The translations under genes were made by a program, and so were the position numbers. The notes beneath the pieces are model-generated. The model ran no database searches. It was not told where the DNA came from and saw nothing but the letters and a program-made list of their open reading frames with translations. Below are positions 4,274 through 53,655 of a DNA stretch of 64,000 nucleotides, piece by piece. Position 1 is the stretch's first letter, and the number at the start of each line of letters is the position of its first letter. The stretch comes from a virus. The stretch lies in IMG/VR virus record IMGVR_UViG_3300047320_000210, positions 1-64,000 of that record; one strand, written 5' to 3'.

Positions 4274-5037
4274 CCTATGACGGCAAATGGCAGGACAGTT
4301 TCGACAAGCTGCCGGTCACCGGCAGCTGCGACGGTGGCTGTGGCAAACCCGCCACCACCTGGTTCGGTCGCACCAGCTGCGCCACCTGTGGCGACAGCGC
4401 CTGCGTGAAGGTGCTGCAGGACAGCTACGACCGCGAGGGCGAGGTGCCGGACTTCGGCCACGTCCAACCGCAACCCGCGTGGCCCCGCCCGACCCTGGAA
4501 CACGAACTGCACGAGGCACTGGCGAAGGTCGCCGGGCTGGAAGAATGGGTGGAGAACCTGCAGCTGGACAGGGCGGGGTTTAAAGCCACGGCGGGGGTGC
4601 TGGCCGCCGAGCTGCGCAGAGCCGAGGACCGCATCGCCGTGCTGGAAGCGGCCGTGCGCGCCAACCATGAGTGGCACCGGGCCTACGACGACCACGGCGG
4701 CTACGCCAAGTCGGGGCTGGACCAGACCAACCTCGCGGCGCTGTATGCGCAGGCCGACCCGGAGCGGGACCAGAAGATCGCCGACTGGCACGAAGGCCGC
4801 GCCGGCCTCGATCAGGAACTGCACGAATACCTCGGCCTGAGCTGGGACGAGTATGCGCAGTGGGCCAACCCCCGGCCGCGACCGCACCCCGCGCTGGCCA
4901 TCGTGCTGGAGAAGGTCGACGACCTCTGCGAACGCTTCGAACTGGAGGGGCTGCACAGCCACCCGACCTACAAGCAGTTCAAGCGGCTGTTTGCCGAGCT
5001 GGCGGCGCTGAAAACGGAACCCCGGAGTGAGCCATGA
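4270..5037 (+). CDS. Putative zinc-binding coiled-coil protein
   Basis: This 255-residue protein has four cysteines in two pairs near the N-terminus (about residues 20-42: CDGGC, then CATC plus a nearby Cys), a plausible zinc ribbon. A long charged helical stretch (about residues 85-140) likely forms a coiled coil, followed by an acidic C-terminal domain. It starts by ATGA overlap with the preceding gene, so a longer in-frame reading upstream is not used. The arrangement suggests nucleic acid or protein binding in the early cluster; the specific role is unknown. Confidence 0.6.
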   Translation: MTYDGKWQDSFDKLPVTGSCDGGCGKPATTWFGRTSCATCGDSACVKVLQDSYDREGEVPDFGHVQPQPAWPRPTLEHELHEALAKVAGLEEWVENLQLDRAGFKATAGVLAAELRRAEDRIAVLEAAVRANHEWHRAYDDHGGYAKSGLDQTNLAALYAQADPERDQKIADWHEGRAGLDQELHEYLGLSWDEYAQWANPRPRPHPALAIVLEKVDDLCERFELEGLHSHPTYKQFKRLFAELAALKTEPRSEP

Positions 5038-9977: not shown

Positions 9978-10370
9978 TCAGGATTCCTCGAATTCAGGGG
10001 TTTTCGGCCCGACCAGGTTGGACGGCGGACGCGGGAAAGCCACGCCAATCGGTCGCCACAGGTGCAGGCAGTAGGGGTGGAACGACACATAATCGGAGCG
10101 CGGCGGGTGGTACTGGATGACGCAGTCTTCGGCGTCCCAAAACAGGTCTTTGACGGTGCACATCACGTCCCAGCTTGGGGTTTTGCTCTGGAAACTGACG
10201 CTGACGTGCTCCCAGCCGTCCCCGTCCGAGGCCATCACCCTAGCCTTCAGCACCTTGTTGCTGCGGGGGTCGGTCAGCGGGATGAAAAACGTGCCGTTGT
10301 TGCCATGGTAAGTGGCGGAAGCCATGCGGCCAGCGGTGATACGGAAACGCTCAGGAACCTTGAAAGCCAT
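9978..10370 (-). CDS. Conserved phage protein (DUF7694-like)
   Basis: This 130-residue protein carries the compact motif EHVSVSF near residue 55, WDVMCTVKDLFWDAEDCVIQ near 66-85 and FHPYCLHLWRP near 97-107. This combination is a recurring small phage domain with no known activity (remembered as DUF7694). The ATG at 10370 is preceded by AAGGAA; the longer open frame upstream overlaps the neighbouring gene and is not used. Confidence 0.75.
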   Translation of the reverse strand: MAFKVPERFRITAGRMASATYHGNNGTFFIPLTDPRSNKVLKARVMASDGDGWEHVSVSFQSKTPSWDVMCTVKDLFWDAEDCVIQYHPPRSDYVSFHPYCLHLWRPIGVAFPRPPSNLVGPKTPEFEES

Positions 10371-10392
10371 GGTGATTTCCTTGTCTTTGGGG

Positions 10393-10602
10393 CTACAACC
10401 GATACTTTTCAGTGGCCTTGAGAAGCGCGTTGATCTCAGCGTCGTGCGCCCTGTCTGCCGCGCTGGCCGCCAGACGCAGGCATTCGCCGAGGCCGTCGCA
10501 ACGCGCGTGGGAGAACTCGGCAATCAGCTTGTCGTTGATCTGCAGGCGGTAGTGGTGGCGGCCTTCGGCGTCCCGCTCACCGGTGTTGATGATCGCGATC
10601 AT
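10393..10602 (-). CDS. Small hypothetical protein
   Basis: A 69-residue protein with two N-terminal strands (MIAIINTGERDAEGRHHYRL) and a helical C-terminus. It starts at the ATG at 10602, which overlaps the stop of the upstream membrane-protein gene by 4 bases. No function recognised. Confidence 0.6.
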   Translation of the reverse strand: MIAIINTGERDAEGRHHYRLQINDKLIAEFSHARCDGLGECLRLAASAADRAHDAEINALLKATEKYRL

Positions 10603-11045
10603 GGGTGCACGACCTTGGCCGTGGCCATGATCTTGCGTTGGCGACGACGGGCCAGCCAACGGCTGGGCGACGGCAGCAGGTCGCGGAATTTCGGTTTGAC
10701 GCGGGGTATGTTGCATTGCTCGACCAGCAACTGGTGCAGGTGCGTCAGCTGATCCACCGCACGGGCGTAGGAGTCGGCCAACGCGAGACGCTTAGCCGGG
10801 GAGAAGCCCTCGTATTCCTCTTGCAGCTCGATGAGTTGCTTGGCCACCAGGCGCTCATGGTCGATGCACCGTTGCTGGATGTCGGCCCAGGCCGCCAAAC
10901 CGCCGAGCTTCCAGGACAACCAAGCACTGAGGATCAAGCCGGTGAACGGCAGGTTGGTGACGTGCATCCACACCTGGACAAACACCTGGGTCGCGATCAG
11001 GGCCAACAGCATGTGGGAAGTCAAAATGGCGCGAAGAATTTTCAA
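10599..11045 (-). CDS. Membrane protein with cytoplasmic helical tail
   Basis: This 148-residue protein has two hydrophobic segments at residues 8-28 and 33-53, followed by about 90 charged, helical residues and a basic end, so it is a probable inner-membrane protein. Size and position inside a regulatory cluster suggest superinfection exclusion or membrane signalling, but nothing in the sequence proves this. It ends in an ATGA overlap with the next gene. Confidence 0.6.
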   Translation of the reverse strand: MKILRAILTSHMLLALIATQVFVQVWMHVTNLPFTGLILSAWLSWKLGGLAAWADIQQRCIDHERLVAKQLIELQEEYEGFSPAKRLALADSYARAVDQLTHLHQLLVEQCNIPRVKPKFRDLLPSPSRWLARRRQRKIMATAKVVHP

Positions 11046-11062
11046 GTGGTAGTCCCTTACGC

Positions 11063-11440
11063 TTATTTGAATTCCCGGTACGGCTCAACACCAAGCCGTT
11101 CGGCCAGCCGGTTCACCAACTTCTGCGCCGGGGTCTGAAACTTCAAACTGGACTCTTGGCGATAGCGCCCGTCGTGCCAGGTGACGTACTCGAAAAGCTC
11201 AAGCGCTTCGCGCAGCAAATCGACGTCCGCGTCGTGCTGGATTTCGACGCGCTCGCCAATCAGCTGCATGCGGTTGACGAAGTCATCCGGCAACCGGCTG
11301 TGCAACTGCCCGGTGTGGATGTTGCGGTAAATCTCGGTGTCGTGACCGCGATCTGTACCGGCGCCGATGCAATGACCCAGCAACTCGTAGGTGCCGTCCT
11401 TACCCTGCGCGATGTACAGCGATTTCGGGGGATTAAGCAT
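11063..11440 (-). CDS. Hypothetical protein, DUF1653-like element
   Basis: This 125-residue protein has an N-terminal beta domain with TYELLGHCIGAGTDRGHDTE and IYRNIHTGQLHSRLPDDF (about residues 17-54). That resembles the small DUF1653-type fold (a YRH..TG.LY..P pattern), followed by a helical C-terminal half. The function of that fold is unknown. The ATG at 11440 overlaps the previous gene by 8 bases. Confidence 0.6.
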   Translation of the reverse strand: MLNPPKSLYIAQGKDGTYELLGHCIGAGTDRGHDTEIYRNIHTGQLHSRLPDDFVNRMQLIGERVEIQHDADVDLLREALELFEYVTWHDGRYRQESSLKFQTPAQKLVNRLAERLGVEPYREFK

Positions 11441-11711
11441 CCATGGACCCCTTGGCAAGTGATGAGATTTTGTCGAAGTCTTTGTCGTTGAGCAGATCGC
11501 GCACGACCTGCAGGGCGAAGGTCTCATCCAGCATAGAGAATAGCTCGACTGCCTTTTCCCGCCCGAGATCAGTGTCAGGCAAGTCGGATTTCAGGGCGCA
11601 AAGCCCCTCCCCATCGGGGTGCAGGAAACGAATCGTAACGGTGTGGTCGCCCTTGACGATCAGCACTTGGCCGAGGTCTTTGGACCAGAAAAGTTTGGCG
11701 AAATCGCGCAT
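11433..11711 (-). CDS. Small hypothetical protein
   Basis: A 92-residue mixed alpha/beta protein without recognised motifs. The start at ATG 11711 is well supported by AAGGAG six bases upstream. It is the gene directly downstream of csrA (28-base gap), so it is probably in the same message and exposed to the same control. Confidence 0.6.
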   Translation of the reverse strand: MRDFAKLFWSKDLGQVLIVKGDHTVTIRFLHPDGEGLCALKSDLPDTDLGREKAVELFSMLDETFALQVVRDLLNDKDFDKISSLAKGSMDA

Positions 11712-11739
11712 GGCGAACTCCTTGTGATGGACCTGTCCG

Positions 11740-11928
11740 TTACTCAGGCAGCAGGGCTTCGGCCTTCTGCTCCAGGATGCGGTTGTAGATTTCTTCACGA
11801 TGGACTTCGACATGCTTGGGCGCGTCAATGCCGATGCGCACCTGCAGGCCATTGACGCCGAACACCGTCAAGGTGATGTCGTCGCCAATCTTGATGGTTT
11901 CGTTAACGCGGCGAGTCAATATCAACAC
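11740..11928 (-). CDS. csrA: CsrA/RsmA-family RNA-binding regulator
   Basis: This 62-residue protein is a full-length match to the CsrA/RsmA family. It starts LILTRR, has [17 protein letters not shown] and HREEIYNRI in the right order and at the right positions, and retains Leu4 and Arg44, the RNA-contacting residues of E. coli CsrA. The family forms a domain-swapped dimer that binds GGA motifs near ribosome binding sites and blocks or protects mRNAs. The start is GTG 11928, giving the canonical family length; GGAG lies 8 bases upstream. It heads the leftward cluster. A phage copy could rewire host translation or control phage mRNAs. Confidence 0.95.
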
Positions 11929-11960
11929 AATCCATTCTCCATGTTTGGGTCTACTGACCC
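11929..11960 (-). promoter_or_regulatory. csrA leader with two GGA motifs and a hairpin
   Basis: On the - strand, two GGA motifs (11938-11940 and 11931-11933) flank and include the ribosome binding site of csrA. A small hairpin (five-base stem 11947-11951 with 11956-11960) lies just upstream. CsrA family proteins are known to repress their own mRNA through such sites; autoregulation here is inference. Confidence 0.45.
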
Positions 11961-12174
11961 GGGATTCATACTGTAACGTTCGTGAGACACATAACCCTAG
12001 CAGGTAAAACAGCGGCTGTCGGGCCGAGGCCCTTGGCACGCCCTATGCTCCCACTGGCGTGGAAGCCCCTAGGTCCGGCCCTTAAAAAAAGGCGTTCCCT
12101 ATGACTCCACGCAGTGGGGATGTTTGGGTAAAAACCCACTCCCACTCCCAGCCGGCGTTCCACACTTTGCGAGG

Positions 12175-12399
12175 TTATGCGTTACAAGCGCCCTCGGCCC
12201 GTCGCGGCGTGTGGCAGGGGTAGGATTTGAGACAGTCAACGTGCACCTTGTCTGGGTTATGTGCGCGCCCTGCCATTGCCTTATCGACCCTTACGGGTTC
12301 GTACCACCTGGCTTTACCGCCCCCCCTCGACCAATGCCCTTGTGGGGGGTAATACGCGTCGTGGTCCAATAGGCGAACAAACGCCCCATCTTGATCCAA
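12175..12399 (-). CDS. Possible small protein in the control region
   Basis: A 74-residue frame with a protein-like composition (Trp, Tyr, His and charged residues well spread) in the gap between csrA and the rightward genes. It has only a weak ribosome binding site and no recognised domain. It would be cotranscribed with csrA. It may equally be noncoding leader sequence. Confidence 0.3.
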   Translation of the reverse strand: MDQDGAFVRLLDHDAYYPPQGHWSRGGGKARWYEPVRVDKAMAGRAHNPDKVHVDCLKSYPCHTPRRAEGACNA

Positions 12400-12438
12400 A
12401 CATCACGACGGAAGGCACTTCGGGGAGAGGGGGCGTAG

Positions 12439-12468
12439 TTGAATACGCGAAGACGATTCGCGTAGAAT
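12439..12468 (+). promoter_or_regulatory. Sigma-70-like promoter with internal operator dyad
   Basis: TTGAAT (12439-12444) and TAGAAT (12463-12468) have an 18-bp spacer. The spacer and its edges form a perfect dyad, TACGCGAA, five bases, TTCGCGTA (12444-12464), so a bound repressor would sit between the -35 and -10 elements. Confidence 0.55.
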
Positions 12469-12474
12469 GGCTAA

Positions 12475-12583
12475 CCCGGTCTCGTATCCCGCCTCTTAAG
12501 CAGAAATCCCCGAGACCTTGGCTGAAGGTACTTGCAATACCCGTCAGTCCGTAAAGCCCTCGCCTAACAGCGGGGGCTTTTTC
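12475..12583 (+). ncRNA. Candidate small RNA, about 108 nt
   Basis: A likely transcript begins about 7 bases after the -10 element at 12463-12468 and ends at a strong terminator. It has a long-range 7-bp stem (GGTCTCG 12478-12484 with CGAGACC 12511-12517) and no convincing reading frame. Promoter, structured body and terminator in 145 bp make an independent small RNA gene likely. It does not have the multiple GGA loops of RsmY/RsmZ, so a CsrA sponge role is not obvious. Confidence 0.5.
12555..12582 (+). terminator. Intrinsic terminator of the candidate small RNA
   Basis: A nine-base-pair stem (12555-12563 with 12570-12578, one G-U pair, 6-nt loop) is followed directly by TTTTT. Textbook rightward terminator. 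Confidence 0.85.
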
Positions 12584-12650
12584 GTTTCAAGGCAACAGGA
12601 TACGGAGCAATCGCGGCCGAATACAAGACGCGATAAGCGCATCTAACGAC

Positions 12651-12679
12651 TTGACATTTGGCTATATGGCACTTTTATG
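12651..12679 (+). promoter_or_regulatory. Probable rightward promoter
   Basis: Consensus TTGACA (12651-12656) is followed after 17 bp by TTTATG (12674-12679), downstream of the small RNA terminator and 230 bp before the first rightward gene. A second TTGACA near 12794 lacks a good -10. Between 12680 and 12908 I see no gene. Confidence 0.45.
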
Positions 12680-12908
12680 GCGCCATTGTCCGACAAGATT
12701 TAGCCGCCAACCGCGCAAAATCAAGGGCTGAAACCGTTCCGCACCGTCGGCCGGAGGTGTCCAAATTATTTACAAAAACGTCACTCTTTTTTGCTTGACA
12801 GCGACATCGCCCCCTACCGATTTTCGATCCTTCGCTAGGCTTACTCTCAAGGCCGCGAACATCTGCACCCACCAAGACGGCCGAGGCAACCCCTAGAAAG
12901 GCCTCCCC

Positions 12909-13199
12909 ATGACCGAGTTCAGCCCTGAAGCGCTGGTGGTTTACCAGCTCGATGACATGCGTCAAGACTTAGAGGTGGTGGGGCTTTACACCCACCCGGA
13001 AGACGCAGAAACCCACGTCGCGGTGATCCCCAAAGAACGCAACCCGATCATCATTCCGATGCCCATGGCCAGCGCCCTGGCGGTGTTGCGCGAAGAAGGC
13101 AACATCGTGCACACCCACCTGTTCGAGCAGCGCCTCGATCGTCTGGCCGAGCGTGTCAGCCAGCTGACGGCGGTGCTTGCCGCGAAGAAGGTGGCGTGA
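12909..13199 (+). CDS. Hypothetical protein preceding the endolysin
   Basis: A 96-residue protein: a beta-rich N-terminal domain (residues 1-60) and a C-terminal amphipathic helix (about 70-93) that could form a coiled coil. There is no transmembrane segment, so it is not an obvious holin. AAAGG lies upstream of the ATG. The stop overlaps the endolysin start by one base, so the two are cotranslated. Function unknown. Confidence 0.65.
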   Translation: MTEFSPEALVVYQLDDMRQDLEVVGLYTHPEDAETHVAVIPKERNPIIIPMPMASALAVLREEGNIVHTHLFEQRLDRLAERVSQLTAVLAAKKVA

Positions 13200-13783
13200 T
13201 GGCGCTGATCACACGGACACCGGAAATCGACAAGATCATCAAAGAGCTGATCGGCATCGAAGGAGACGGAAATGGGCGCATCGACAAAAATGACGCCGGG
13301 GGCGCGACCCGCTGGGGCGTGACCGAAGCGGTGGCGCGCGCGGACGGTTACAAGGGCGCGATGAAAGACTACCCCCGCGACAGCGCCGAGATGCTTTACC
13401 TGCGCAACTACTTCGTGGCGCCGCACTTCGACCAGATTCTGCTGCGCAGCCGCGAACTGGCCGCCGAATTGTTCGAGATCGAGGTCAACCTGCCGCCCGG
13501 GCAGGCCGCCGAATTCCTGCAGCGCGCGCTCAACGCCCTGAACGACCCGGACGGCGACGGCAAGGTCAACTACCCGCAGCTGAAAGTGGACGGTGACCTG
13601 GGCGCGCAGAGTTTTATCGCCCTGGATGCGTTCCTGTTCCTGCGCAAGACACCGGGTATTCACTGCCTGCTGGCCCTGATCAACTCCCAGCAGGCCGTGT
13701 ACTACCTCGGGCGCACCGAAGCGCGGCCACAGAACAAGAAATACGTGTACGGCTGGACCATGAACCGCATTCAACTGGCATAA
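13199..13783 (+). CDS. Endolysin, GH108-type N-acetylmuramidase
   Basis: This 194-residue protein has the GH108 lysozyme pattern: an N-terminal helix ending in LIGIEGDG with Glu21 as the candidate catalytic acid, NDAGGATRWGVTEAVAR (about residues 31-47), GYKGAMKDY, and a C-terminal part with NALNDPDGDGKVNYPQLKVDG resembling the peptidoglycan-binding end of this family. It would cut the glycan backbone during lysis. No signal peptide is present, so it needs a holin; the nearest holin-like genes are 30 kb away. ATG 13199 fits the AAGAAGG ribosome binding site better than the GTG three bases earlier. Confidence 0.85.
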   Translation: MALITRTPEIDKIIKELIGIEGDGNGRIDKNDAGGATRWGVTEAVARADGYKGAMKDYPRDSAEMLYLRNYFVAPHFDQILLRSRELAAELFEIEVNLPPGQAAEFLQRALNALNDPDGDGKVNYPQLKVDGDLGAQSFIALDAFLFLRKTPGIHCLLALINSQQAVYYLGRTEARPQNKKYVYGWTMNRIQLA

Positions 13784-13794
13784 GGCGACAGTCC

Positions 13795-14148
13795 ATGACC
13801 CCACCCCTTGAAGAAATGCTGCGCACGGTGCAAGAGAACCTGAGCCGTGACCCCGACTTGGCCCGGCGGCAGCAGGACATGCACGCCCTGCTGCAAAATG
13901 CGCAGACCGTGGCCGAAATCGCCACCGCTTACCGGATCGGCTGCATCCCCGACAGCGCCAAGCCGATGCAGATCACCGAGACGGAACAAGCGATGTACGC
14001 CGCCTGCCAGATGCTGCTGCAGGTGTTCATGCGCAAGGTCGACGAAGGCGGGGATGCGGCGCAGCAGTGGGTCGAGGCGGTGCTGAAAGAGTGCGCGGAC
14101 TACGCGGCCCGGCGCTACATGGCCATACAGGCGGCGGGCTGTATCTAG
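13795..14148 (+). CDS. Hypothetical helical protein
   Basis: A 117-residue, all-helical, soluble protein directly after the endolysin (11-base gap). It has no membrane segment or lipobox, so it is not a spanin. Its stop is followed at once by heptamer repeat array A, and two hairpins then separate it from the methyltransferase gene. Function unknown. Confidence 0.65.
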   Translation: MTPPLEEMLRTVQENLSRDPDLARRQQDMHALLQNAQTVAEIATAYRIGCIPDSAKPMQITETEQAMYAACQMLLQVFMRKVDEGGDAAQQWVEAVLKECADYAARRYMAIQAAGCI

Positions 14149-14154
14149 CATTAA

Positions 14155-14182
14155 TTCGTAATTCACAATTCGTAATTGCTAG
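14155..14182. repeat. AT-rich heptamer array A
   Basis: Four tandem 7-bp units of the form TTNNNAA/G (TTCGTAA, TTCACAA, TTCGTAA, TTGCTAG) follow the stop of the gene at 14148. Related arrays are at 14979 and 18684. Confidence 0.75.
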
Positions 14183-14185
14183 AAG

Positions 14186-14238
14186 CCGGCACGGGGGCGA
14201 GGGAGTCTACCCCTAGAATTCCCCCACCCCCGTGCCGG
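14186..14238 (+). other. Long hairpin upstream of the methyltransferase
   Basis: A perfect 12-bp stem (14186-14197 with 14227-14238) encloses a 29-nt loop. It is followed 16 bases later by a second 12-bp stem that is a terminator. The two could form a double terminator or an attenuator in the leader of the next gene. Confidence 0.55.
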
Positions 14239-14253
14239 GGGAGTAAACTTACA

Positions 14254-14294
14254 AGCCCCGCACGGTCTGTACAAGCGCCGTGCGGGGCTTTATT
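14254..14294 (+). terminator. Strong rightward terminator
   Basis: A perfect 12-bp stem (14254-14265 with 14278-14289, 12-nt loop) is followed by TTTATT. It ends the transcript carrying the endolysin genes. Confidence 0.85.
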
Positions 14295-14316
14295 CATTCC
14301 ACAGGGGAACCCCACC

Positions 14317-14985
14317 TTGTCCGCACGAATCATCCAATGCAATCCCGATGCCCTGGCACAACTGGCCAGTGAGGCGCTATGCGACGGCGCCCTGAAGGTC
14401 ATGCCCGCAGCGTTCTACCGCCAGTTTGAACAGGTTGACCTGGCAGGCTTCTGCTTAAAACAAGCGGCCTACTGCCTGCCCACGTTCGAGCTACTGGATA
14501 AGATCAACGAGCTGATCTTAGAAGTCAGCCCGACCCGCTCGGCCATCGAGATCGGCAGCGGCAACGGCGTGCTGGGGCAGGCGCTGGGCATCCCCTGCAC
14601 CGACAACTACATGCAAGCAGACGCCGGGATTCAAGCGATGTACGCGAGCGCGATGCAGCCGGTGATCACCTACGGCGCGCACGTCGAAAAGCTCGATGCC
14701 TTCGCCGCCGTCAAGCAATACAAACCTGAAGTCGTGGTCGCGGCATGGGTGACACACAAGTACAACCCCGCCGAGCACTGGCGCGAAGGCAATATGTTTG
14801 GGGTCGATGAAAAGGCGTTGCTGCGTAGGATCAAGCGCTACGTGTTTGTCGGGAACCTCTCCCCGCACGGCAAAAAGCCGCTGCTCGCCGTCCCGCACAA
14901 GCGGATCGAGGTCGACTACGTGTTTTCGAGGTCGCTCGATGCCCACAACAACGCGATCTTGGTGTGGGAATCTCGCAATTGCTAA
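14317..14985 (+). CDS. Class I SAM-dependent methyltransferase-like protein
   Basis: About 222 residues with a Rossmann-type methyltransferase core: motif I EIGSGNGVLGQALG (about residues 74-87), an acidic residue ending the next strand, and VVVAAWVTH around residue 145. The target-recognition part is not recognisable, so DNA, protein or small-molecule substrates are all possible. The start is probably TTG 14317, with AGGGGA eight bases upstream and just behind the terminator at 14254-14294; no ATG has comparable support. Its TAA stop lies within heptamer array B and is convergent with the next leftward gene. Confidence 0.75.
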   Translation: MSARIIQCNPDALAQLASEALCDGALKVMPAAFYRQFEQVDLAGFCLKQAAYCLPTFELLDKINELILEVSPTRSAIEIGSGNGVLGQALGIPCTDNYMQADAGIQAMYASAMQPVITYGAHVEKLDAFAAVKQYKPEVVVAAWVTHKYNPAEHWREGNMFGVDEKALLRRIKRYVFVGNLSPHGKKPLLAVPHKRIEVDYVFSRSLDAHNNAILVWESRNC

Positions 14986-15006
14986 TTAGTAATTGCTAAT
15001 TAATTC
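14979..15006. repeat. AT-rich heptamer array B, shared by two convergent stops
   Basis: Tandem units TTGCTAA, TTAGTAA, TTGCTAA, then a degenerate unit. The array contains the TAA stop of the rightward methyltransferase (14983-14985) and that of the leftward gene (15000-15002), so it closes genes on both strands. Confidence 0.75.
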
Positions 15007-48815: not shown

Positions 48816-50092
48816 TTGCTGATCGCCAGGATGCGTCGCGGCCGGGTGCAGGCCACGTTCAGGCATTGCAGGGATTCCAGGTAGTTTTTGTTCAGCAGGA
48901 TGTCAGCGGAGTCGACGAACACGGACTCGTAGGTCGAGCCCTGCGCGCGGTGGGCGGTGATCGCGTGGCTGGGGCGCACGTCGTGGATGGCTTCCTTGGC
49001 CTTCCAGAACGCCGGCCAGCCGCCGCCCGCCTTGGCGTTGTTGGACAGGTCGATGAGCAGGCGCTTGTGGGCGCGTTCCGAGCTTTCATGGATGACCCAG
49101 CAGGTCACCAGCATGTGGGCTTCCAGTTCCGGCTGGACCTCGACGCGGTAGCAGGTCAGTTCGGAGAACACCGGGTGCTGCTGGACATCGATCGAGAACA
49201 CCGTGCCCTCTTCGTCCGTGGTCATGAGTGTCTCTTTGCCGTCCGGGGACATGATCGGCTGGCAGACCACCACCCGCTCGCCCGGCTGGAACGGGGCCTC
49301 GGCGGCGAGCTTGGCGCCATACATGGCCTCGCGGATCATGCCGTTGTACATGGCCACGGTGTCGTTGCGCCAGGCGATCACCTTGATCGAGCCGGGGTCC
49401 TTCGCGTAGCTGTCGCTGGTGAAGGCGTCGACCGCCTTGGCCCGCAGCTTCTTGTAGTTGAGCAGGTAGACCCCACCCTTCTCGTCGTTTGCGCTGAACA
49501 GGTTCAAGGACACCCCGTGCAGGATGCACTCACGCATGTGCGTGGCCATGGCCAGAATCTGGTTGTCGTGGCGCTCGACCTTGGTCAGCTCACGGCGGTA
49601 GCCGATGTCGAACACCGGCGACTGTTCCTCCCCCACCGGTGGCAACTGGGTGCGGTCGGCCATGAACAGGAACTTCACCCCTTCGGTGCGGGCGGTGCGC
49701 TCGATGTGGTACATCAGCCCGTTGTTGGCCATCGAGCCTTCGTCGACGATCACCACGTTGTAGGCGCTGGCCTGGTTGAAACCCTCGGCTGCGCGCACCT
49801 GCTTGACCTCGCCGCTGTTGTCCATGCGCAACCCGAGCAGGGAGTAGATCGTGCGGGTCGGCACCATCCCCTGCAGCTCGGTCTCGCACATCTGCTTGAG
49901 GACCTTGGTCGCCTTGTTGGTCGGCGCGGTCATCACTACGCTCTGGCGCGTCTCGCGGCAGAAGGTCTGCGCGCTGGTACTTTTGCCCGTGCCGGCGCGG
50001 CCTTCAAGCATGAAATACGACTCTTCGCTCTCGGCGAAGGTGAGCATTTCATCCACGGCATCGCGCTGCTGGTCGTTCAGTTGAATAGTCAT
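48812..50092 (-). CDS. SF1B DNA helicase, RecD/Dda-like
   Basis: A 426-residue helicase: Walker A GRAGTGKST (about 29-37), motif Ia TAPTNKA, Walker B VIVDEGS (about 113-119), motif III FMADRTQLPPVGE, and motif VI region ITAHRAQGSTY (about 378-388) with VACTRPR near the end. The arrangement matches phage T4 Dda and RecD-type 5'-3' helicases that load on forks. ATG 50092 overlaps the polymerase stop by four bases. Confidence 0.9.
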   Translation of the reverse strand: MTIQLNDQQRDAVDEMLTFAESEESYFMLEGRAGTGKSTSAQTFCRETRQSVVMTAPTNKATKVLKQMCETELQGMVPTRTIYSLLGLRMDNSGEVKQVRAAEGFNQASAYNVVIVDEGSMANNGLMYHIERTARTEGVKFLFMADRTQLPPVGEEQSPVFDIGYRRELTKVERHDNQILAMATHMRECILHGVSLNLFSANDEKGGVYLLNYKKLRAKAVDAFTSDSYAKDPGSIKVIAWRNDTVAMYNGMIREAMYGAKLAAEAPFQPGERVVVCQPIMSPDGKETLMTTDEEGTVFSIDVQQHPVFSELTCYRVEVQPELEAHMLVTCWVIHESSERAHKRLLIDLSNNAKAGGGWPAFWKAKEAIHDVRPSHAITAHRAQGSTYESVFVDSADILLNKNYLESLQCLNVACTRPRRILAISK

Positions 50093-53000
50093 GCGACCCA
50101 CCCCTCTTTGGCCCACTGGTCGAACAGCGCTTCAACCTTGCGCTGCGACGGTCGATCCCCCAGTTCGTTCTGGCTGGCGTCGTACCAGTTGCGCCCCACC
50201 GACACCTCGGCCAGCATCGGGATGACGTGGCCCGGCGGGGTGAGGTTCATCAGGTCCTGAGCGCGGGATGCGAACTCGAACACGTTGTCGATCGGCACCG
50301 AGTTGACCAGTTCGTCGTACACCGGCGCGATCAGGTGCGAGCGGGTCTCTTCGTAGAGCTGGGTGTGGTGGGCCTTGGTCAGCACCACCTTGAGGATGTC
50401 GGCGGCGCAGCCCTGGATCTGGTGGTTGTTGGTCTGGCGTTCTGCGCGGGCGCGCAGCGAACCGTCGCGGCTGAGAATGTTCGGGTCGCAATGTTTGCGG
50501 GTGCCGAAGGCGGTGGTGATGTACCCCTGCCGCTTGGCCACGGCGATGTTTTCCTGCTGCCACGGCGCGAGGCGCGGGTAGCCGGCGAACACGCCGTCGA
50601 TGATCTGCTGGGCGAACACCTGCGGGACGCCCAGTTTCATGCCCATGCTGAAGGCCTGACCGCCGTAGATGATCAGGAAGTTGACGGTCTTGGCCATCTT
50701 GCGGATCTTGACGATGACCTTGCCCAGCGGCAGCGCGAGGTCGCCGACCATTTCATAGACGTGGTCGCCGCCGTGCAGCAGGCTGACGAACTGCTCGTAG
50801 TCCATGCTGCCGGTTTCATCGAACGCCAGGCGCTTCAGGATCTCGCTACCCAGCGCCTTCTCCAGCACCTTGCCGGCAAACGTACAGCCGGTGACGGAGT
50901 GGATGTCCTTGAAGATCGCCCGGGTCATGCCGTCGTCGTCGACGTAGGTGCCGCCGCCGGTGTAGGCCTCGATCAGCACCGGGTCGCGCGACTCGCTGCC
51001 GGTAATGCGCAGTTCCTGCCCGCTGAAGTCGAGGGCGACGATGACGTGCCCCTTGAACCGCGGCAGGAAGATCGAGCGCAACGGCCCCTTGCTCACCGCG
51101 AGGATGTTCAGGCTGCTGCCGGCCGGGCGCCGCGTCTTGGTCCCGCAGTTGCGCGTGCCGGGGTGCCACACGCCGGTGGCTGGGTGCCGCCAGTGCGGGT
51201 ACTTGGCGTAATACAGCGACTGCCGGGTCATGCACTCCTTGGTTTCCAGCAGCAGCTGGAGCACTTCGCGGCGCCAGTCGCCCTCGGGGCAGTCCTCGGC
51301 GATGGCCGCCTGCATGGCGTCCTTGTCCGTTCCGGGGTTGCCTTCCAGGCCGAGTTCGTCGCGCCGGCTGCCCTTCTGCGGCAGGGTGCGCAGGCGCACC
51401 GGCAGCTGCAGTTTGCAATACAGCAGTTCCTGCATCTGCTTGGGCGAGTTCAGATTGAGTTCGTCGCCGGAGATTTCGCGCACACCGTCCTGGTGAATCA
51501 CCTCGCTCTCGATGAACGCCTTCAGCGCAAGGAACGCCTCGCCTTTGCGGGTGCGGATCTCGCCGGCGGCGGCCTGCACCAGCTCGACCAGCCGCGCCGC
51601 GCGGGGGTCGGTGCTGCCGCGTTGCTTGAGGTAGTTCTGGCTGGCCACCAGCCACGCGGTGATGCCCTTGGCACTGACGCCGGCCATGGCCACCGGCAGC
51701 CCGACCAGATCCGCCACGCGGGTGAAGCCCTTGTCGGTGGCGGTGAACTCGGCCGGGCAGAAGGTTTCGCAATACGGCCGGTACACCGAGCCCTGCCGCC
51801 AGCGCTCATAGGTCTCGGCGACCTTGGCCTGGGCCTGCGCCCGGTTCAGTTTGTCGTGCAGGTGCAGCTGCAGCAGGTTGTTGCCCTCGGCCAGCCGCAG
51901 GCCCTCGGCCCCGGTCTCGTCGATGTCCTTGCAGTGCTCGGCCAGCAGGCTGTGCATGCGTTCGTTGTTGTTCTTCACCACCTTCGCATCGGCGTCGGCC
52001 AGCTCGGTCATGCCCGGGCTGTCGAGCTGGACCCCGGTCTCAAAGCTGCGGTTGAACGGGTGGACGGTGAACCGGTCTTCTTCGTAGGCGAACTTCCATT
52101 GCTGTTCGAGTTTGAGGATGAAGAAGAACAGCACCGCCAGCCGCGCGGCGACAAAGGCGTCATCGCAGGCGTAGTGCAGCACCTGGGCGCCGGTCAGGTC
52201 GCGCATGTCGCGCGCGCCGAACTGGGCCATCAGGCTCGCGTACTCGACCTGGTCGTACTTCAGCCACTGGCGCGCGTGCGCCTTCAGGCCCTGCTCCATG
52301 TTCTCGTCGACGTAGGTGCCGAGCATCTGCGTGCACACCGGGCCGTCGAGCTGGAAATCGAGGTCCTGTTTGGTCAGCTGCTCTTCGAAGCGGGTGTTGT
52401 GCGCGACGAAGTCGAGGCCTGCGTCTTCGATGTCGAGCAGCAGGTCGACCAGCCGCACCTTGTCCAGGTTGGCCGTGTCGCGGTGCTGCACCGGCAGGTA
52501 AAAGGTGTGCTGCAGGTTCGACCCGTAGGTGAACGAGCCGCCGGTGAGGCGGGCCGACAGCACGTCGACGTAGCTCTTGACCGTGTCGGGCAAGGCCGGG
52601 CGCCAGTCATGGCCGAGCGAGTCATAGGTCTCGTAGTCAAAGCTGGCCAGCGGCGTGTCGCGCAGGCCCTCGGCATACGCGGCGTGCACTTCTTCCCAGT
52701 TGTCCGGGGTGACCAGGGTCATGGTCGGCATGTGCGGCGCGAAGTGCTCGAACAGGTCCGCATCGCCGGCGATCTTCAGCAGGTCCTGCACTTTGGTCGC
52801 GTCCGGTAAGCGCACGTACCATTCCGGGCGGATGATCTTGCGGCCCAGCGTGCCGTACAACAGTTCCGGGTGCAGCCCGGCCAGCGTGTACATCAGGCGC
52901 CAGGTGGTGCGGTGCTCGTAGATTTTGCGCAGCACCTTGCAGCCGGTGGCCTCGACCGCTTCCAGCAGAAAGGTGTAGTCGTTGCTGGCCACGCAGGCTT

Positions 53001-53655
53001 CCAGCTGCTCGATGCCGTCCCAGCCATAGGTGTCGACGAGGAACTTAAAGGCCGCCACCCCGACCTGCGGCACGCCGCCGTATTCGTCGGTCTTGTCCCC
53101 CACCAGCGACTTGTAGATGCGCACGTAGCGGACGGGGTAGCCTTCGAAGTCGTCGGCGGGCAGGGCCTTGACCAGCACCAGGGTGTTGTCGTCGGCCAGC
53201 TGCAGCAGGTCGCGGTCGACCGTGTGCACCAGCTTCTGGAGTTCGGGGAAGTAGCGGCAGAAGGCACCGATCACGTCGTCCGCCTCGACCCCTTCCACGC
53301 GCACGTTGAACGCGCCGCAGTAGGCGAGCAAGGCCTTGGCCATGTCGAGCATCTTGGTGAGCTGCGCCTCAACGGCGGGGTCTTTCTCTTCGGCGTGGCG
53401 CTTGGCTTTGTAGCCGGCGAACAGGCCTTCGCGGTAGTTGTTGCCGCCATCCCACACCGCGACGATGTTGAGCGGGGAGAAATCGTGAAGCAGGGGAATG
53501 AGATATGTGTCGAGGAAGCCGCGCAGACCATAGCCGGCCGAGTTCACCGGCTTGTCAGTCAACGGGCTCAATTTGGCGTCGGGGTCGATGCCCCGGTGGT
53601 AGGCGTGCATGAGCAAACCACGCACGTCGAGCAATGCAAGTCCTTGAATTTTCAC
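50089..53655 (-). CDS. Family A DNA polymerase with 5'-3' and 3'-5' exonuclease domains
   Basis: 1,188 residues, longer than bacterial Pol I (about 930). Residues 1-290 are a FEN-type 5' nuclease (VEADDVIGAF near 123-132 and TVDRDLLQL). About 330-520 is a DEDD 3'-5' exonuclease: FDYET (338), AHNTRFEEQ (about 415), YACDDAF (about 495). The polymerase domain has motif A ALDFSGQELR (about 872-881), motif B RKMAKTVNFLIIYGG (about 984-998) and motif C VYDEL (about 1111-1115), where Tyr replaces the usual His. About 200 residues between the 3'-5' exonuclease and motif A exceed the usual length. This is the main replicative polymerase. Confidence 0.95.
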   Translation of the reverse strand: MKIQGLALLDVRGLLMHAYHRGIDPDAKLSPLTDKPVNSAGYGLRGFLDTYLIPLLHDFSPLNIVAVWDGGNNYREGLFAGYKAKRHAEEKDPAVEAQLTKMLDMAKALLAYCGAFNVRVEGVEADDVIGAFCRYFPELQKLVHTVDRDLLQLADDNTLVLVKALPADDFEGYPVRYVRIYKSLVGDKTDEYGGVPQVGVAAFKFLVDTYGWDGIEQLEACVASNDYTFLLEAVEATGCKVLRKIYEHRTTWRLMYTLAGLHPELLYGTLGRKIIRPEWYVRLPDATKVQDLLKIAGDADLFEHFAPHMPTMTLVTPDNWEEVHAAYAEGLRDTPLASFDYETYDSLGHDWRPALPDTVKSYVDVLSARLTGGSFTYGSNLQHTFYLPVQHRDTANLDKVRLVDLLLDIEDAGLDFVAHNTRFEEQLTKQDLDFQLDGPVCTQMLGTYVDENMEQGLKAHARQWLKYDQVEYASLMAQFGARDMRDLTGAQVLHYACDDAFVAARLAVLFFFILKLEQQWKFAYEEDRFTVHPFNRSFETGVQLDSPGMTELADADAKVVKNNNERMHSLLAEHCKDIDETGAEGLRLAEGNNLLQLHLHDKLNRAQAQAKVAETYERWRQGSVYRPYCETFCPAEFTATDKGFTRVADLVGLPVAMAGVSAKGITAWLVASQNYLKQRGSTDPRAARLVELVQAAAGEIRTRKGEAFLALKAFIESEVIHQDGVREISGDELNLNSPKQMQELLYCKLQLPVRLRTLPQKGSRRDELGLEGNPGTDKDAMQAAIAEDCPEGDWRREVLQLLLETKECMTRQSLYYAKYPHWRHPATGVWHPGTRNCGTKTRRPAGSSLNILAVSKGPLRSIFLPRFKGHVIVALDFSGQELRITGSESRDPVLIEAYTGGGTYVDDDGMTRAIFKDIHSVTGCTFAGKVLEKALGSEILKRLAFDETGSMDYEQFVSLLHGGDHVYEMVGDLALPLGKVIVKIRKMAKTVNFLIIYGGQAFSMGMKLGVPQVFAQQIIDGVFAGYPRLAPWQQENIAVAKRQGYITTAFGTRKHCDPNILSRDGSLRARAERQTNNHQIQGCAADILKVVLTKAHHTQLYEETRSHLIAPVYDELVNSVPIDNVFEFASRAQDLMNLTPPGHVIPMLAEVSVGRNWYDASQNELGDRPSQRKVEALFDQWAKEGWVA

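Follow-up and report, generated by a model that had tools for sequence, protein, structure and literature searches.

A small antisense RNA gene in an ~84-kb phage contig as the probable RNAI of a ColE1-type replication origin

ColE1-type replication origins are known from small plasmids. In ColE1 itself RNAII is 555 nt and RNAI 108 nt long, a TTGGA-TCAAG element is present and the RNA-binding protein Rop (rop/rom) is encoded near the origin. ColE1 plasmids have been reported in Vibrionales, with two- or three-loop versions mentioned in a figure legend, while only two were found in Pseudomonadales with a method that may lack sensitivity (PMC8683028, in excerpt). Antisense control modules accompanied by Rep genes have been described in Pseudomonas (PMC5304414, in excerpt). 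The Pseudomonas plasmid pLz4W is maintained at ~10 copies per cell, a number that rises without RNase R, and the excerpt of PMC11375266 names no origin for it; for a set of Antarctic plasmids that includes pA4J1 iteron-type origins were predicted throughout (PMC6896180, in excerpt). Cluster A mycobacteriophages have RNA-based, par-proximal prophage origins, which their authors called the first to their knowledge (PMC7157519, in excerpt). Our search of the literature found no report of a ColE1-type origin in a phage genome.

Here we describe a noncoding locus that belongs to the core of a phage lineage of ~84 kb. It lies in the analysed stretch of DNA (hereafter the window), which comprises the first 64 kb of a viral contig of 83,921 bp. 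The small RNA gene of this locus very probably encodes the RNAI of a ColE1-type (class B theta) replication origin that the phage carries. Like such origins it has an RNAI of ~110 nt with three stem-loops, the third of which is the terminator, that is antisense to the 5' end of a predicted RNAII of ~545 nt, and no recognised Rep; unlike them it has an RNAI that scores below the Rfam cut-off and an RNAII body of PAGEV type, and is located in a phage contig. Beside the origin lies csrA, where ColE1 has rop/rom. The likeness to the cluster A mycobacteriophages consists in the lack of integrase and RepA, the par genes and a noncoding RNA region for prophage-plasmid replication, but their regions are par-proximal with no RNAI-type antisense RNA of their own described (PMC7157519, in excerpt), whereas the present phage has recognisable ColE1-type RNAs and a ParA gene ~25 kb away, so its origin is not par-proximal. 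A homologous RNAI/RNAII module in the same order as in the phage occurs on the small cryptic plasmids pLz4W, pA4J1, pLKYC.ZH and pPMA4326D, which differ from it in being 4-11 kb long and devoid of phage genes. The features of the locus are as follows.

11740-11934, minus strand: csrA homolog (PF02599, phrog_9500), directly downstream of RNAII on the same strand
12030-12075, minus strand: approximate replication start (oriV) at the 3' end of the conserved block, placed by analogy with ColE1
12046-12590, minus strand: predicted RNAII pre-primer of ~545 nt, running leftward from ~12590, in a block (12046-12609) conserved in phages and plasmids
12153-12405, minus strand: PAGEV RNA (RF03037), body of RNAII; 69.5 bits, gathering threshold 61.1, E 1.4e-16
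12439-12468, plus strand: RNAI promoter, -35 TTGAAT (12439-12444), 18-nt spacer, -10 TAGAAT (12463-12468)
12444-12464, minus strand: probable stem-loop IV of RNAII, a dyad earlier read as an operator; based on wobbles on the RNAII strand and a double change in relative L009
12475-12585, plus strand: RNAI, antisense RNA of ~110 nt; based on RF00106 alignment and covariation, with the start set by the -10 box
12478-12517, ~12520-12550 and 12553-12580, plus strand: the three stem-loops of RNAI
12553-12587, plus strand: intrinsic terminator of RNAI, 11 pairs (12553-12580) plus T run; its complement is stem-loop I of RNAII
12597-12626, minus strand: predicted RNAII promoter, -35 TTGTAT (12626-12621), 18 nt, -10 TATCCT (12602-12597), read from the sequence

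RNAI folds into its three stem-loops at -39.3 kcal/mol and conforms to the ColE1-type pattern of an RNA of ~100 nt that ends in an intrinsic terminator. A preliminary description of this DNA had proposed a small RNA gene complete with promoter and terminator, a predicted transcript of ~108 nt with a long stem, and no fitting coding frame. At the level of the sequence all of this was borne out: the TTGAAT-18-TAGAAT promoter is present, three stem-loops fold with the terminator hairpin as the last, the gene calls agree that the segment is noncoding, and the elements are in place and kept in relatives. Taken singly, promoter, terminator and dyad are within chance expectation. In the interval 10000-15000 one promoter-like site was found (1.8 +/- 1.3 in shuffles) together with five terminators (5.1 in shuffles), and the whole 64-kb window contains 44 perfect 8-bp dyads with spacers of 3-10 nt, overlapping counts included. 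The RNA gene stands above chance because it is conserved in relatives.

Relatives of the window were collected by scans of viral contigs, which gave 7 loci for the endolysin and 27 for TerL; a 96-aa protein used as query returned 0 relatives from the viral contigs. The central part of the small RNA is held by nine viral contigs besides the window. The entire noncoding block 12,046-12,609 aligns at ~80-82% identity in close relatives, and in the diverged phage L010 only about 12,459-12,610 of it does. Across relatives the -10 box of RNAI reads TAGAAT, TATACT or TATTAT, and the terminator stem with its T run is kept in 12/12 aligned sequences. In these 12 sequences, 11 of them distinct, 98.3% of cells in the RNAI helices pair. 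Covariation, which had been proposed as a check in related phages, is present in these 12 sequences, with 17 double-change cells in the helices against 5.0 in shuffles (reached in 0 of 500) and 0-2 when the helices were slid. RNAalifold predicted 22 pairs on the RNAI strand, 6 of them with compensatory changes (12 sequences), and 19 pairs on the RNAII strand, again 6 with compensatory changes (13 sequences). Judged from these alignments, the compensatory changes support a real RNA.

In a permissive Rfam scan the RNAI model RF00106 aligned over its full length (1-102/102) to 12471-12585 (+) with 25.5 bits and E 0.021, which is below its gathering cut-off of 47 bits, and hence the window RNAI is not counted as a family member. 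Full-length matches were found at the orthologous place in 9/9 phage records holding the region (the window and 8 relatives) and in 6/6 plasmids, with E between 1.4e-6 and 0.018. None of 16 records reached the gathering cut-off, these being the 9 phage records with the region, the 6 plasmids and L011, which has just 2.5 kb upstream of TerL. Since scores stay below cut-off and 10/14 control genomes also match RF00106 at E <= 1, none over cut-off, the weight of these matches rests on their shared position. From 12 RNAI sequences we built a covariance model (hereafter R1), which was searched against plasmids outside its training and matched at the corresponding place in pPMA4326D (E 4.6e-9), pA62H2 (1.9e-5) and p_apl32 (5.1e-7), a test that was not fully blind since blastn with queries from related plasmids had already brought up these three. 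R1 gave no RNAI match in L021-L024, L026-L033 and L073, which are more distant relatives by TerL, and its match on the Oceanimonas plasmid pOCEGK02 reached no better than E 0.21.

On the minus strand the order, which recurs in the plasmids, is the predicted promoter, a start near 12,590, stem-loops I-III, stem-loop IV, PAGEV and an end near 12,046. Stem-loops I-III of RNAII are the exact complement of RNAI; RNAI would thereby be antisense to the 5' portion of RNAII, and the predicted RNAII promoter is found just past the RNAI terminator. This promoter has 8/12 consensus positions and is weak by itself; its pattern TTGTNN-18-TATCCT is kept in the aligned phage relatives including L010. The presumed origin carries an A6 run after GGGAGC in most relatives, and none in the window.

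The body of RNAII is a member of Rfam family RF03037 by score, although it surfaced solely in the permissive scan, the scan of the whole window at gathering thresholds with fast filters giving no match. PAGEV was over cut-off in 7/23 records of relatives and also in small Pseudomonas plasmids, and the RNAII body of L010 is without it. Rfam 15 gives its type as gene/sRNA with no role named, we know of no published function, and PAGEV was not found as an RNA name in a literature search. Searched against plasmids, the PAGEV consensus matched 27 records, 17 from Vibrio and 10 from Pseudomonas. Four small Vibrio plasmids contain PAGEV well over cut-off (116-125 bits), and by eye each shows an A-run and hairpin ~100 nt upstream of it, equivalent to a terminator on the opposite strand. 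R1 found no RNAI in these four; RF00106 matched weakly on the antisense strand of two (L089, L091) and on the sense strand of L090 and also L091. For Pseudomonas there is good support that PAGEV forms the RNAII body of ColE1-like replicons; for Vibrio this is plausible.

The perfect 8-bp dyad, with arms at 12444-12451 and 12457-12464 in and around the promoter spacer, had been taken for an operator inside the promoter. The dyad itself is there, but the operator role found no support. In the six distinct phage rows, reading the pairing on the RNAII strand gives 37 Watson-Crick, 6 wobble and 5 unpaired cells, against 37, 1 and 10 on the opposite (RNAI) strand. Since G-U wobbles on the RNAII strand help to preserve the pairing in relatives, the dyad is more likely an RNAII hairpin, stem-loop IV, that would overlap the RNAI promoter by happenstance than a DNA operator. 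L009 has a compensatory double change in it and the plasmids have a hairpin of different sequence at its place (TCGGG...CCCGA); in L010 and pA4J1 it is weak, no better than in shuffles.

When the conserved block was compared with plasmids by blastn, 10 records were matched, all from Pseudomonas, and no annotated feature lies beneath any match. Among them are pLz4W (4,482 bp), pLKYC.ZH (9,180 bp, two copies) and pA4J1 (10,609 bp), the annotations of which name no Rep. As in ColE1-type replicons, no initiator Rep was recognised in the proteins scanned: no Pfam Rep domain was found in 6/7 pLz4W proteins, nor any Rep family by Pfam among the phage proteins scanned, several leftward genes of the window having been scanned with PHROGs only. 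Comparison of the phage contig, minus its last ~0.9 kb, with pLz4W returned 12047-12319 and 12464-12522 as the sole DNA matches, and the sole match at the protein level overlaps that same block in translation. The homologous small plasmids carry none of the phage genes that flank the module. These data put in question the iteron-type origin predicted for pA4J1. A phage search with the plasmid origin as query gave no match.

A further replicon, pOCEGK02, has an RNAI that scores 57.2 bits and passes the Rfam cut-off. The RNAII body of L010 aligns with it over ~270 nt, and this ties the origins of the phages to a plasmid that Rfam itself accepts as having an RNAI. The TTGGA-TCAAG element (ATTGGATTCAAG) is found in the phage RNAII and also in pOCEGK02. 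The data suggest that RNAI and RNAII body are exchangeable.

Some observations on these plasmids stand apart. pLKYC.ZH (L047) has two copies of the RNAI/RNAII origin, as do records W04 and W06, and its copies differ in stem-loop II, as expected of two compatible origins in a cointegrate. It also contains a traJ-II RNA (RF01760) at 4751-4845 (-), with 40.1 bits against a cut-off of 40, although the plasmid is typed as non-mobilizable. pA4J1 and the phage share a resolvase-like protein (43% over 180 aa).

The phage encodes TerL, a major head protein, a GH108 endolysin, ParA, two serine recombinases and an antirestriction protein. Its late genes occupy 12.9-44.5 kb and point rightward, most of the others leftward. 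The genome is probably circular, because the contig ends repeat: 1-2438 of the window and ~81486-83921 of the record form a direct repeat of ~2.4 kb with 87-93% identity. This repeat adjoins the two serine recombinase genes, and its imperfection may mean that a circular genome was put together from reads of a mixed population, or that the segment is variable. No tyrosine integrase (PF00589) was found in the phage. ParA lies at ~68.2-68.8 kb of the record, which on a circular map places it ~25 kb away from the origin, and was found in 4/9 records, the five without it being fragments of 8-60 kb. Structural genes, a partition gene and an origin, with no integrase, are the traits of a phage-plasmid, here known from metagenomic contigs. 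Because ParA is encoded, a tyrosine integrase is lacking and the contig ends are repeated, it is reasonably likely that the phage uses the origin as a plasmid prophage. The closest cultured phages by TerL are the Pseudomonas phages Lana and PMBT3 (32%), and the only TerL relative in the genome collection is in a Desulfobacteraceae MAG (49% identity). The host is probably a Pseudomonas, mainly because the plasmid relatives of the origin are from Pseudomonas. As a side observation, L004, L005, L007 and L008 have, from ~1,340-1,607 to 4,001 in their own coordinates, ~2.4-2.7 kb inserted between the gene of the 96-aa protein and the endolysin gene relative to the window.

The mechanism that we propose follows ColE1. 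RNAII would be transcribed leftward from ~12,590 and form an RNA-DNA hybrid near ~12,050, where it would be cut by RNase H and then prime DNA synthesis by a PolA-type polymerase. RNAI would pair with stem-loops I-III of RNAII and block primer formation, which would set copy number and incompatibility. With the phage ParA the origin may, less certainly, maintain a circular plasmid prophage, and lytic replication may start elsewhere. The phage encodes a family A DNA polymerase (PolA) with an N-terminal 5'-3' exonuclease domain (1,181 aa; window 50089-53634, minus strand), and this Pol I could in principle extend the RNAII primer. The minimum of GC skew is near 43 kb and leaves 12 kb unmarked as an origin, which fits a separate lytic start as well as a non-functional module.

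The csrA gene was found in 9/9 records with the origin, and beside it where loci were aligned or read; it was found in 0/5 relatives that lacked an R1 match to the origin, each of these five records being incomplete. RNAI (12475-12585, plus strand) contains no GGA and thus lacks the repeated GGA in loops expected of a CsrA sponge, in agreement with the earlier opinion that it is probably not a simple one. GGA positions in RNAII revealed no CsrA site that is both phage-specific and of good consensus, so that a role for CsrA draws its support from co-occurrence. Candidate CsrA-binding sites after the RNAI terminator (CAACAGGATACGGAGC) were rejected, the conserved stretch being the -10 region of the RNAII promoter on the other strand. 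In a wider reading, the entire PAGEV family would supply the RNAII pre-primers of ColE1-like replicons in a Pseudomonas/Vibrio branch, and CsrA would be the functional counterpart of Rop/Rom that tunes the encounter of RNAI and RNAII. This reading is tentative and as a joint claim rather doubtful; we rate a Rop-like CsrA low because the RNAs showed no convincing CsrA site. If true, it would tie the copy number of the phage-plasmid, and perhaps the lytic switch, to the Gac/Rsm state of the host.

Gene order had first suggested a leader of the lambda 6S/pR'-tR' type, in which a sigma-70 promoter with a Q site in its spacer gives a leader RNA that ends at a terminator before the late genes. The RNA gene is indeed just upstream of rightward late genes (endolysin, terminase, capsid) and has a dyad inside its promoter spacer, yet the same gene occurs on small plasmids without late genes, its RNA is antisense to a conserved RNA and none of the scanned proteins was assigned to a Q family. 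This candidate was dropped on the match of the block to Rep-less plasmids, and we regard it as highly improbable. The preliminary description had also thought of a switch RNA, given its place between csrA and the genes that run rightward, which was not upheld either, as the RNA is antisense to a longer conserved RNA and the pair is homologous to that of plasmids without the flanking phage genes. The plasmids, which have the RNA pair but no annotated csrA, similarly argue against RNAII being the 5' leader of a csrA mRNA attenuated by RNAI; in the phage records csrA does follow RNAII in the same orientation, and such control could exist in addition to an origin function, but as a substitute for it this is very unlikely.

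Equally remote as the late leader is an antisense RNA that controls a Rep protein, of the ColE2 or REx-C type known from the RepA/RepJ replicons of Pseudomonas. No common protein gene follows RNAII in the phage (where it is csrA), pLz4W, pA4J1 and pPMA4326D, and the Pfam scans of pLz4W and phage proteins gave no Rep family, even if three-hairpin control modules of this kind are known from Pseudomonas plasmids (PMC5304414, in excerpt) and the large plasmid pA62H2, which has a degenerate copy of the module, has a 'protein rep' annotated elsewhere. More credible than these, though still unlikely, is a plasmid remnant, i.e. a captured module that no longer replicates and serves for instance as a mere incompatibility factor against resident plasmids. 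The unmarked GC skew at the site and the missing A-run at the presumed origin of the window would fit a remnant; ~80% identity and compensatory changes kept across the clade, and the presence of the RNAI part in the diverged L010 as well, argue against one.

With a ColE1-type origin, copy number in the phage would depend on a switch made of RNA alone, free of protein, and the orphan RNA family PAGEV gains a testable role. The finding also touches on the remark about scarce ColE1 plasmids in Pseudomonadales and the sensitivity of the method (PMC8683028, in excerpt). It offers a possible reason for the rise in pLz4W copies without RNase R (PMC11375266, in excerpt), as both control molecules would be structured RNAs. 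Furthermore, these phages and small Pseudomonas plasmids are predicted to be capable of incompatibility. As for stem-loop II of RNAII (window 12520-12550), its loop is of type TTGCAA in the window, L006 and L007, of type TTACAA in L009, L002, L004 and L005, and of another type in L010; these loop types could represent incompatibility groups.
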